Assembly (NCBI GenBank): GCA_944393465.1
Contig: CALYAG010000005.1
Location: 1 to 64,000, forward strand
From: an uncultured Clostridia bacterium
GTDB taxonomy: Bacteria; Bacillota; Clostridia; TANB77; CAG-508
Direction of reading: 5' to 3'
DNA: 64,000 nt
The translations under genes and the position numbers were made by a program. A model generated the notes under the pieces. It searched no databases. It saw only the letters and a program-made list of their open reading frames with translations, and was not told where the DNA came from. Below, piece after piece: positions 4,339 through 27,364 of the stretch; within the stretch, counting starts at the first letter, position 1; each line of letters begins with the position of its first letter.

Positions 4339-4456
4339 TTTTCAGTTGGGGACGGTCCTAAATCGAAAATTTTATTCTTAATTATCATATTTTTTCATTT
4401 TAGGACCGTCCCCAAACGAAAATTTTCGATTTAGGACCGTCCCCAACTGAAAAAAT
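4339..4456. repeat. GGACGGTCC-family inverted repeat, copy 1
   Basis: The left arm (TTCAGTTGGGGACGGTCCTA then AATCGAAAA) begins near 4341. Two tandem right arms follow: one with AGGACCGTCCCCAA at about 4401-4414 and one with the full complementary arm at about 4424-4452. It fills the gap between lepA and rlmB and abuts the lepA stop codon. The arms can form a stem of nearly 30 bp. The doubled right arm suggests a tandem or nested insertion. Confidence 0.9.
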
Positions 4457-24382: not shown

Positions 24383-25591
24383 ATGAAGAAAAAGATTATT
24401 GTAACTGCTTTAATAGTAATAGTTTTAGCTATAGTAAGTGGATATTTTTACACTACATTTTCACCACATAGCAATGATCAAGGAAGCTTCGTTAATACTT
24501 CTGTTAATGAAGAAAATAGTGTTTCTAATGTTACTACAGATAGTACCAATAATAATTTTGCTGAAAGCGAAGACCTTTTTTCGTCATACTATGATGAAGC
24601 AGAAGAAATGCTTTCAAAAATGACTTTAGAAGAAAAAGTTGGTCAAATGTTTTTGGCTAGATACCCTTCATCAGGCGTAATAAATGAAATCAAAAACTAT
24701 CAACCTGCTGGTTATATTTTATTTGGAAAAGATTTTCAAAATGAAACGCCTAATTCTATAAAAAAAGAAGTACAAGATTGTCAAAATGCCAGTAAAATAC
24801 CACTCGCTTTAGGGGTTGATGAAGAAGGTGGCACTGTTGTAAGAGTCAGTCAATATAAAGCTTTTAGGGCATCTCCTTTTAAATCGCCAAGAGAAATTTA
24901 TGCAAATGGCGGTATGGATGCGGTAATTTCAGACTCTCATGAAAAAAGCAATTTGTTAAAAAGTTTAGGGATAAATATGAATTTAGCACCTGTTGTAGAT
25001 GTACCTGAAAGTTCAAATGATTTTATTTACAAAAGAGCATTTAGCACAAATGTAAATGAAGTTAAAGATTTTACTAATCAAATAATAAATGCAATGAAAT
25101 CTGATAATATAACTTCTGTTATGAAACATTTTCCTGGCTATGGAAACAATGTTGATACCCATACAGGTATTGCTATAGATAAAAGAGATTATTTAAATTT
25201 TGAAAATAGAGATTTTATACCTTTTGAGGAAGGCATAAAAAATGGTGCTCCTGCTATTTTAGTCAGTCATAATATTGTAGAATGCATGGATAAATCTAAA
25301 CCTGCTTCTTTATCAGAAAATGTTCACAATATTTTAAGAAATGAACTAGGCTTTTCTGGAATTATTATGACAGATGATTTAGCAATGGATGCTGTTAAAC
25401 AATATGTAGAAAATGGCGATGCTGCAACTCAAGCAGTGCTTGCTGGAAATGATTTAATTATATCTTCAGACTTTGCAAATCAAAGGAACGAAGTTTTGCA
25501 AGCGGTAAAAGATGGCACAATTGAAGAAAATACAATTAATGATGCTGTAAAAAGAGTACTAGCGTGGAAAGTGATGTATGGAATAATATAA
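24383..25591 (+). CDS. nagZ: glycoside hydrolase family 3, NagZ-like beta-N-acetylhexosaminidase
   Basis: The 402-residue product starts with an uncleaved signal-anchor (residues 4-27), followed by a Ser/Asn-rich linker (about 30-65) and one GH3 N-terminal barrel. GH3/NagZ motifs are MTLEEKVGQMFLAR (about 80-93), GVDEEGGTVVR (about 140-150), KHFPGYGNNVDTHTG (about 244-258) and IIMTDDLAMDAV (about 324-335), which holds the catalytic Asp. The anchor puts it outside the membrane, so a peptidoglycan-derived GlcNAc substrate is likely. It is the only sizeable plus-strand gene in the window. The KHFPGHG His is Tyr here, while the following DTH is kept. Confidence 0.9.
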   Translation: MKKKIIVTALIVIVLAIVSGYFYTTFSPHSNDQGSFVNTSVNEENSVSNVTTDSTNNNFAESEDLFSSYYDEAEEMLSKMTLEEKVGQMFLARYPSSGVINEIKNYQPAGYILFGKDFQNETPNSIKKEVQDCQNASKIPLALGVDEEGGTVVRVSQYKAFRASPFKSPREIYANGGMDAVISDSHEKSNLLKSLGINMNLAPVVDVPESSNDFIYKRAFSTNVNEVKDFTNQIINAMKSDNITSVMKHFPGYGNNVDTHTGIAIDKRDYLNFENRDFIPFEEGIKNGAPAILVSHNIVECMDKSKPASLSENVHNILRNELGFSGIIMTDDLAMDAVKQYVENGDAATQAVLAGNDLIISSDFANQRNEVLQAVKDGTIEENTINDAVKRVLAWKVMYGII

Positions 25592-25617
25592 TTATGTAGC
25601 TTTTTTGTGTAAATCTA

Positions 25618-25646
25618 TAGACTTCCATGGTAATTTATGGTAGAAT
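25618..25646 (+). promoter_or_regulatory. promoter of the small hydrophobic peptide
   Basis: TAGACT (25618-25623) and TAGAAT (25641-25646) have a 17-base spacer on the plus strand. Transcription would start near 25653 and give an mRNA of about 135 bases ending at the terminator at 25788. Confidence 0.6.
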
Positions 25647-25673
25647 AAAGGTGCCTTTCATGGTAGAAAGGAG

Positions 25674-25699
25674 GTATACTAAAGATGAAGCATTTGAAA
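25674..25699. repeat. direct repeat A at the peptide's translation start
   Basis: GTATACT, AAA, then GATGAAGCATTTGAAA covers the end of the ribosome binding site and the first codons of the peptide. Repeat B at 25791-25813 is the same 7-mer followed directly by a 15/16 match of the second part. Antisense RNA from the convergent promoter contains the complement of repeat B, so it could pair here in trans. Confidence 0.8.
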
Positions 25700-25753
25700 G
25701 AAGTGCTAATCTTAATCATTATATACATAATTATGTCTAATGAAAAAGATTAA
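25685..25753 (+). CDS. 22-residue hydrophobic peptide, candidate type I toxin (Fst/par-like)
   Basis: The ORF encodes MKHLKEVLILIIIYIIMSNE followed by KD: a basic N-terminus, one hydrophobic helix (about residues 7-17) and a charged C-terminus. This is the shape of membrane-acting toxins of the Fst/Ldr type, though shorter than the roughly 33-residue Fst. AAAGGAGG ends 10 bases before the ATG. The mRNA has its own promoter and ends at a bidirectional terminator shared with a convergent antisense RNA. The function is inferred from architecture, not from sequence identity. It lies in an intergenic stretch of 339 bases between nagZ and an aldehyde dehydrogenase gene. Confidence 0.65.
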   Translation: MKHLKEVLILIIIYIIMSNEKD

Positions 25754-25757
25754 GTGA

Positions 25758-25788
25758 AAAAAGCTAGGATCTAGACTCCTAGCTTTTT
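25758..25788. terminator. bidirectional terminator shared by the convergent RNAs
   Basis: AAAAAGCTAGGA (25758-25769) and TCCTAGCTTTTT (25777-25788) form a perfect 12-bp stem with loop TCTAGAC. Both strands end in a T run, so it can stop transcription from either side. Confidence 0.85.
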
Positions 25789-25790
25789 AA

Positions 25791-25813
25791 GTATACTGAT
25801 GAAGCAATTGAAA
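25791..25813. repeat. direct repeat B
   Basis: GTATACTGATGAAGCAATTG followed by AAA repeats the translation-start region at 25674-25699 with a 3-base deletion and one mismatch. It lies inside the antisense RNA gene. Confidence 0.8.
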
Positions 25814-25829
25814 TTTAATTGCTATACTT

Positions 25830-25858
25830 ATTATACTTTTTTTACCTTTTATTGTCAA
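25830..25858 (-). promoter_or_regulatory. strong promoter of the antisense RNA
   Basis: TTGACA (25858-25853) and TATAAT (25835-25830) match the sigma-A consensus at all twelve positions with a 17-base spacer. A perfect promoter is expected for an abundant, short-lived antitoxin RNA. Confidence 0.85.
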
Positions 25859-25898
25859 TACTTTTTTCATTTTTCTATTTCAATTCTCACAAAAACTA

Positions 25899-25930
25899 TT
25901 TTCGATTTAGGACCGTCCCCAACTGAAAAT
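25899..25930. repeat. GGACGGTCC-family single arm, copy 4
   Basis: TTTTCGATTTAGGACCGTCC then CCAACTGAAAA is a right arm without a partner. It ends on the base before the aldehyde dehydrogenase stop codon. No left arm is seen within the preceding 150 bases. Confidence 0.85.
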
Positions 25931-27364
25931 TTATAATACATTTTTCAAAACTATTGTTTTCAATCTGCTCATTTCTTGAAGTGTTGTAAGAACACCTTCA
26001 TTTCCAATACCGCTATGTTTCCAGCCACCAAATGGCATTTCAAATGAACGGTAGAAGCTTGTTCCATTTACTACTGCGCCACCACATTCAAGTTTGTTTG
26101 CTATTTTTATTCCTCTTGAATAGTCTTTTGTTATAACACATCCGCAAAGTCCATAAGAAGACCCATTAGCAATTTCAATTGCTTCTTCTTCAGTATCAAA
26201 TCCTATAACTGGTATTACAGGTCCAAATACTTCCATGTCTTTGGCTATGTCCATGTCTTTTGTAACATTATCTAATATTGTTGGATAATAATATGCTCCA
26301 TCTCTTTTTCCACCACATACTAAAGTAGCCCCTTGCTCAATTGTTTTGTTTACAAATTGTTCTACTCTTTCTGCTGCTGGAACATTTATAAGTGGTCCCA
26401 TATCAGTATCCATTTGTGATGGATCACCAACTTTTAAGTTAGATATTACTTCTTTCATTCTATCTATAAATTCTTGTTTTCTAGAATTATGTATTAAGAA
26501 TCTCTTTGATGCACAACATACTTGTCCACCATTATATAATCTTCCTAAAATGGTTTCTTTAACAGCTAAGTCCATATCTCCATCTTCTAAGAATATGAAT
26601 GCATCATTTCCACCAAGTTCTAGCATTACATGTGTTAAGTTTTTAGAACATGTTCCCATTGTTTGAATTCCGGCAGCCGTACTTCCTGTTAGTGAAACTA
26701 AGTGTACGCCTGGATTTGCGGCTAATTCTTGACCTACTGTTGGACCATCACCTGTAAGAAGTTGTATTGTTCCTGCTGGAACACCTGCTTCTATCATTAA
26801 TTTAACATATTCTGTAAGTGTTAATGGGTTGTAGTTTGATGGTTTTACAATAATGCTATTTCCCATAAGTAATGCAGGTGGAACTTTTTGACAGAATAAG
26901 TCACTTGGGAAGTTGAATGGTAATATTGCTGCAACTACACCAATTGGTTGTCTTACTGTTATTTGCATTGTTTTTTCTTGACCTGCTTCTTGTCCTGCTG
27001 GTATTGATTCATTGTATAAATGTTTTGCTCTTTCTACAAATGCAGTAGCTCCAATTTTTACATTTGCTATTTCTGCAATTGCTTCTTTTATTGGCTTTCC
27101 AGTTTCTGCACTCAATAATTTTGCTAATTTATCTTTATCTCTTTCAACTAAATCAATAAATTTGTATATTTTATCTGCTCTTTCATGAAGTGGAACCTCT
27201 GCCCATTTCTTTTGTTCTATTTCAGCTACTCTTACAGCCTCATTTACATCTTCTGGAGAGCAATTTGGAACTGTGTCTATAAGTTCACCTGTTGCTGGGT
27301 TTGTTACTTCAATAATTTTTCCGTCTGATGCATCTCTCCATTCATAACCTATTAAATTTTTCAT
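25931..27364 (-). CDS. NAD(P)-dependent aldehyde dehydrogenase
   Basis: The 477-residue product has the ALDH fold: FNFPSDLFCQKVPPALLMGN (about 149-168), a cofactor-binding SLTGSTAAG (about 224-232), ELGGNDAFIF with the general base Glu (about 249-258), and the catalytic Cys in GGQVCCASKRF (about 279-289). Relatives include succinate-semialdehyde, lactaldehyde and non-phosphorylating glyceraldehyde-3-phosphate dehydrogenases; the substrate is not decided by sequence here. It stands alone between the FIST gene and the small toxin-like locus. The leader holds a tandem repeat at 27428-27482. Confidence 0.9.
   Translation of the reverse strand: MKNLIGYEWRDASDGKIIEVTNPATGELIDTVPNCSPEDVNEAVRVAEIEQKKWAEVPLHERADKIYKFIDLVERDKDKLAKLLSAETGKPIKEAIAEIANVKIGATAFVERAKHLYNESIPAGQEAGQEKTMQITVRQPIGVVAAILPFNFPSDLFCQKVPPALLMGNSIIVKPSNYNPLTLTEYVKLMIEAGVPAGTIQLLTGDGPTVGQELAANPGVHLVSLTGSTAAGIQTMGTCSKNLTHVMLELGGNDAFIFLEDGDMDLAVKETILGRLYNGGQVCCASKRFLIHNSRKQEFIDRMKEVISNLKVGDPSQMDTDMGPLINVPAAERVEQFVNKTIEQGATLVCGGKRDGAYYYPTILDNVTKDMDIAKDMEVFGPVIPVIGFDTEEEAIEIANGSSYGLCGCVITKDYSRGIKIANKLECGGAVVNGTSFYRSFEMPFGGWKHSGIGNEGVLTTLQEMSRLKTIVLKNVL

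Follow-up and report, generated by a model that had tools for sequence, protein, structure and literature searches.

In the Ibs/Sib system of Escherichia coli, a toxin of 18–19 residues is repressed by an antisense RNA; the Sib RNA spans the whole ibs gene, and there is neither a shared terminator nor a separate start-site repeat. The par loci (RNA I/RNA II of pAD1 and chromosomal homologues) are characterized by convergent promoters, a shared bidirectional terminator, the direct repeats DRa and DRb, and a 5' stem-loop that sequesters the Shine-Dalgarno (SD) sequence, as set out in a review of the Fst/Ldr family (PMC7472228). Within the Clostridia, the type I modules of Clostridioides difficile (CD0956.2/RCd10 and its relatives) pair a small hydrophobic toxin with a convergently transcribed antisense RNA, and some of them are located on prophages (PMC6563280).

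An earlier note on the window studied here (the whole stretch of DNA analysed, 64,000 nucleotides) had proposed a candidate type I toxin-antitoxin locus of par/Fst layout, and this layout was supported in that all four of the par features listed above could be recognized in the sequence. The likeness to par/Fst extends to the direct repeats, which span the toxin start and are mirrored in the antisense gene, to the short length of the predicted antisense RNA, and to a peptide predicted to be a hydrophobic helix with a charged tail. The locus differs from par/Fst in that its repeat is one near-continuous block and in that the toxins of its family are mostly 20–24 residues long, compared with 29–33 in Fst. 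The C. difficile modules resemble it in being convergent and of type I, in the small size and hydrophobicity of the toxin and in their occurrence in Clostridia, but their toxins have 34–59 residues and no sequence relation to the peptide described here. To our knowledge, the combination of a par-style shared terminator and a start-site repeat has not been described for those modules. With Ibs/Sib, the likeness lies in a very small toxin under antisense control and the difference in Sib running across the whole ibs gene.

Anatomy of the Locus

The locus lies in an intergenic gap of 339 bases (25592–25930), flanked by a GH3 (glycoside hydrolase family 3) gene (24383–25591, + strand) and an aldehyde dehydrogenase gene (25931–27364, − strand). 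Its features are:

25618–25646, + strand: promoter of the toxin mRNA, TAGACT-17-TAGAAT, 9/12, with TG before the −10 (extended −10, TATGGTAGAAT)
25653–25789, + strand: predicted toxin mRNA of ~137 nt (RNA I analogue), deduced from promoter and terminator, starting ~7 nt past the −10
25654–25671, + strand: 5' stem-loop, CCTTTC (25654–25659) with GAAAGG (25666–25671), predicted to pair with the SD and hide it
25667–25674, + strand: Shine-Dalgarno sequence AAAGGAGG, kept in intact copies
25674–25699, + strand: direct repeat copy 1, GTATACTAAAGATGAAGCATTTGAAA, from the end of the SD to codon 5, predicted antisense target
25685–25753, + strand: ORF MKHLKEVLILIIIYIIMSNEKD, 22 codons, predicted membrane-helix toxin, supported by selection and conservation in 36 homologues
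25758–25788, unstranded: bidirectional intrinsic terminator, AAAAAGCTAGGA-TCTAGAC-TCCTAGCTTTTT, common to both predicted transcripts
25758–25823, − strand: predicted antisense RNA of ~66 nt (RNA II analogue), deduced from promoter and terminator, with its start site near 25823
25791–25813, − strand: direct repeat copy 2 within the antisense RNA gene, the transcript of which would be complementary to the start region
25830–25858, − strand: promoter of the antisense RNA, TTGACA-17-TATAAT (25858–25830), 12/12

The ORF, both promoters, the terminator and the repeats were each found where the earlier note had placed them, and the SD-covering 5' hairpin is additional to the elements it had named. 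Its promoter sequences were recovered with the matches given above, as was its perfect bidirectional terminator, which has a 12-bp stem and a 7-nt loop. A scan of the locus for consensus terminators did not list this structure, apparently because the U-run sits inside the stem. The repeat copies agreed as had been described, over GTATACT (7/7) and GATGAAGCATTTGAAA/GATGAAGCAATTGAAA (15/16), and the match was better than in 2000 of 2000 shuffles. Folding of the predicted transcripts gave z-scores of −5.7 for the toxin mRNA and −4.5 for the antisense RNA.

These elements were retained in relatives. In 35 of 36 homologues, the SD was more likely to be paired than in controls with a shuffled leader (0.75 versus 0.48), the spacing from SD to start was invariant among copies, and the antisense promoter matched at 10–12 of 12 positions in 32 of 34 homologous loci, in which the antisense RNA would be 58–75 nt long. 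Homologues in the genus also kept the toxin promoter motif TATGGTARAAT/TATGGTATAAT together with an upstream TATAGACTT. The CTAGGA/TCCTAG stem of the terminator was invariant in an alignment of 15 loci, and distant loci had other perfect stems in its place. Based on the repeat shuffles, the fold z-scores and the conservation in dozens of loci, the arrangement is well above chance.

The terminator loop of the mRNA contains a YUNR U-turn, a feature of par_pAD1 that some par homologues lack. It was found in 12 of the 36 relatives, with 6.9 expected, and so initiation of pairing at the loop does not appear to be a rule of the family.

The −10 region of the toxin promoter (25634–25652, TTTATGGTAGAATAAAGGT) is 79% alike to the SD hairpin region (25657–25675, TTCATGGTAGAAAGGAGGT), and several homologues show the same likeness, which possibly reflects an internal duplication.

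The Encoded Peptide

The peptide is predicted from its hydropathy to form a single hydrophobic helix with a charged tail, and the family has the signature L-(hydrophobic)3-Y-x-I. In an alignment of 36 homologues, one Leu was invariant while being encoded by five different codons, Tyr and Ile were each retained in 34 of 36, and pN/pS was 0.42 from codon 8 to the end. These codon patterns indicate purifying selection and mark the ORF as a real gene. They also bear on the possibility that the ORF is incidental and the locus a non-coding antisense pair or repeat family, a reading suggested by the very small size of the ORF and by a few copies that have none. Given selection at the codon level, the retention of Leu through five codons and the invariant SD and start spacing, we regard that explanation as highly improbable.

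Searches of Pfam, NCBIfam, PADLOC and PDB gave no match for the peptides. The Fst profile PF13955 had no match at these loci in 31 genomes, and in a control genome from Companilactobacillus the same profile identified three Fst loci in tandem; two cleanly anchored Fst loci from the controls (L238 and L242) yielded the same repeat pattern by the same script. The [PDST]xxx[GC] (PxxxG) motif of the Fst membrane helix was present in 0 of 36 peptides, and the Trp at the junction of helix and tail of Fst was not found, the three peptides of 36 that contain W having it near the N-terminus. The peptides scored at most 4.6 bits against the Fst profile. By these comparisons (PF13955, motif, Trp and profile score) the short peptide falls outside the Fst family, in agreement with the earlier note's view of it as new; it is not detectably a member and, on this evidence, would not be filed as Fst.

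A true Fst/Ldr member, strongly shortened and diverged within an inherited par locus, would also account for an architecture identical to par down to the SD hairpin and repeats (PMC7472228), and for the shared build of the two peptides, each consisting of a single hydrophobic helix and a charged tail. We consider this doubtful, as PF13955 was silent at loci in 31 genomes yet finds real Fst loci in Companilactobacillus, and as neither the helix motif nor the profile score connects any of the 36 peptides with Fst.

Distribution of the Family

A DNA search found many homologues in the genus and a second copy in the same genome, 58 kb away and 84% identical; the ORF at 25685–25753 has an 80% identical copy at G000:C5:83873. 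Several dozen copies were found across the taxonomic family, in metagenome-assembled genomes (MAGs) of uncultured Clostridia and on one phage contig, all with the same anatomy of convergent promoters, SD hairpin, short ORF, a single shared bidirectional terminator, and an antisense gene in which the start region recurs.

A covariance model built from 15 loci identified the locus in 14 of 31 genomes of the genus (E<=0.001), with up to six matches per genome, counts in which a few copies are decayed or partial and which are approximate with regard to presence and absence because many MAGs are incomplete. At least ~15 further full members, in MAGs of uncultured Clostridia/Eubacteriales, came from GTDB contigs that were scanned with a sequence pattern and whose matches were then rescored with the model, the counts of named MAGs being lower bounds. 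When the order was searched with a peptide profile, 25 of 146 genomes and 10 of 33 genera had members, almost all of them belonging to this taxonomic family and the rest to one other family of the order. The profile also gave a match in a third family that proved false, and one order-level match (L265) was rejected as part of a 403-residue protein. Distant members have different terminator stems and start regions and keep the layout. A strict DNA pattern applied to 391 genomes of the class returned the genome's own copies and one chance match only, having missed the distant members because their terminator stems differ.

In a scan of viral sequences, an IMG/VR contig carried the locus, flanked on one side by a weak match to a tail chaperone and on the other by a superinfection-exclusion-like gene. 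The matches in phage and plasmid records were confined to short stretches or to the consensus antisense promoter. No Rfam family reached its gathering threshold over the locus, and the sub-threshold matches there were attributed to chance. In the open-access papers searched, we found no description of this toxin/antisense family.

Cognate Pairing

In nearly every copy, the sequence past the terminator repeats that copy's own start region, though the start regions differ among copies. For 34 loci, duplex energies were calculated between the start regions and the 5' portion of each antisense RNA. The mean energy was −27.6 kcal/mol for cognate pairs, a value reached in 0 of 20,000 permutations, and −10.8 kcal/mol for non-cognate pairs. 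The covariation of repeats in relatives that carry the ORF, which the earlier note had proposed as a check on its reading, was thus borne out: the best partner was the cognate antisense RNA in 31 of 34 loci, and one exception (L135) reflects a wrong assignment made by the script behind an extra hairpin.

The duplex of the locus at 25685–25753 (own1) had an energy of −32.0 kcal/mol and that of the second copy in this genome (own2) −26.7 kcal/mol, versus −16.2 and −11.6 kcal/mol for the crossed pairs, and the two copies are predicted to cross-react poorly. In G012, which has recent tandem duplicates, cross-pairing is still predicted. Three tandem copies in G262 have near-identical promoters and leaders, and their start regions are all different, each being mirrored by its own antisense gene. 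This tracking of each copy by its cognate antisense RNA points to an unreported family of putative RNA-controlled toxin-antitoxin pairs.

Decay of Copies

Several copies had lost parts of the locus. G003 and G008 each retained the antisense half and terminator at a site that had lost the toxin half; the site decayed in G003 is intact in G008, and that decayed in G008 is intact in G028. Among order-level copies, the antisense half was recognizable beside toxins with an early stop (L251 and L269), a frameshift (L258), or loss of the start and SD (L267). In G030, a deletion running exactly from one repeat to the other had removed toxin and terminator, as judged against the otherwise near-identical locus of G004. 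Two copies (L076 and L246) had an ORF without an SD, and there the repeats or antisense half had decayed too. A survey of the copies, made partly by eye, identified no case of intact SD, start and ORF without an antisense half.

Decay thus appears to be one-sided, broken toxin halves retaining the antisense half, as would be expected of a toxin-antitoxin pair. The earlier note had named interruption of the ORF where repeats and promoters are not co-conserved as a finding that would speak against the locus; such copies were seen only as coherent decay, which does not argue against coupling of the two halves.

A different possibility is that the antisense RNA controls a non-toxic small membrane protein with a physiological role, such as regulator of a membrane enzyme. 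The loci do adjoin ordinary housekeeping genes, and chromosomal par homologues often have no deletion phenotype (PMC7472228). However, the loss of the toxin first in one-sided decay fits a toxin better, and the patchy presence, paralogues and tandem arrays are also better suited to a toxin than to a housekeeping peptide, and we judge this explanation to be unlikely.

Some altered copies were of other kinds. An orphan antisense gene (L037/L071, G003:C15:4109-4232) had an unchanged promoter and terminator and a pairing segment diverged from that of the orthologous intact locus, and may have a different target. In L072 (G004:C126:3782) and L091, the antisense half past the terminator was replaced by IS200/REP-associated transposase-like sequence, leaving the terminator only in L072 and a truncated ORF and terminator in L091. 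The antisense gene of L217 (G025:C27) was seemingly lengthened by an insertion with another hairpin (GAAAGGAGG), possibly the fused remnant of a second locus.

Proposed Mechanism

We interpret the locus as a chromosomal type I toxin-antitoxin locus, in which an antisense RNA would block translation of a membrane peptide, and assign this reading a probability of roughly 0.8. The best reading of the copies together is a new type I toxin-antitoxin family with a par-like working and a toxin of its own. The anatomy, its conservation, the selection on the ORF, the cognate pairing and the one-sided decay can be read from the sequences, and transcription, kinetics, repression, membrane insertion and toxicity are predictions.

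The weak promoter would give an mRNA of ~137 nt encoding the 22-residue membrane peptide, the ribosome-binding site of which would initially be hidden by the 5' hairpin. The strong convergent promoter would produce the ~66-nt antisense RNA, presumably in excess. With regard to kinetics, first contact of the two RNAs would probably occur at the common terminator hairpin, after which the antisense RNA would base-pair through the direct repeat, cover the SD and start codon and so block translation. If the antisense RNA were lost or became limiting, the peptide would be made and inserted into the membrane, and the cell would be harmed.

We further speculate, at slightly below an even chance, that the par design was reached independently with an unrelated toxin, and that, in paralogues and tandem arrays, a near-constant scaffold whose pairing segment is driven to diverge has produced a library of orthogonal RNA switch pairs within single genomes. 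If these interpretations are correct, abundant uncultured gut-type Clostridia carry a sizeable and apparently unannotated type I toxin-antitoxin family, and the par mechanism operates there with a toxin that has no relation to Fst, which would mean that the regulatory design is separable from the toxin. The tracked repeats, tandem arrays, orphan antisense genes and repeat-mediated deletion would then be material for studying the diversification of antisense specificity and the death of addiction modules, and the cognate pairs would offer orthogonal riboregulators as tools.

Neighbouring Repeats and Genes

A dispersed palindromic element with the core GGGACGGTCC/GGACCGTCCC (TTTTCGATTTAGGACCGTCCCCAACTGAAAA), often in inverted pairs, has many copies here and in relatives of the genus and is a REP/MITE-like repeat. 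It occurs in the window at 4349, 4403, 4434, 18310, 18383, 25910, 28828, 28884, 30526 and 30598, and a half-copy lies just past the antisense-promoter side of the locus. In addition, a protein of ~105 residues (ELLAKLP.../YRLLLETAQRYPEVTFVFPKKNL), with no match in Pfam, is encoded beside several copies (L040, L036 and L065), next to a gene for an SNF2-family helicase; at one site it lies between two toxin loci arranged in tandem.
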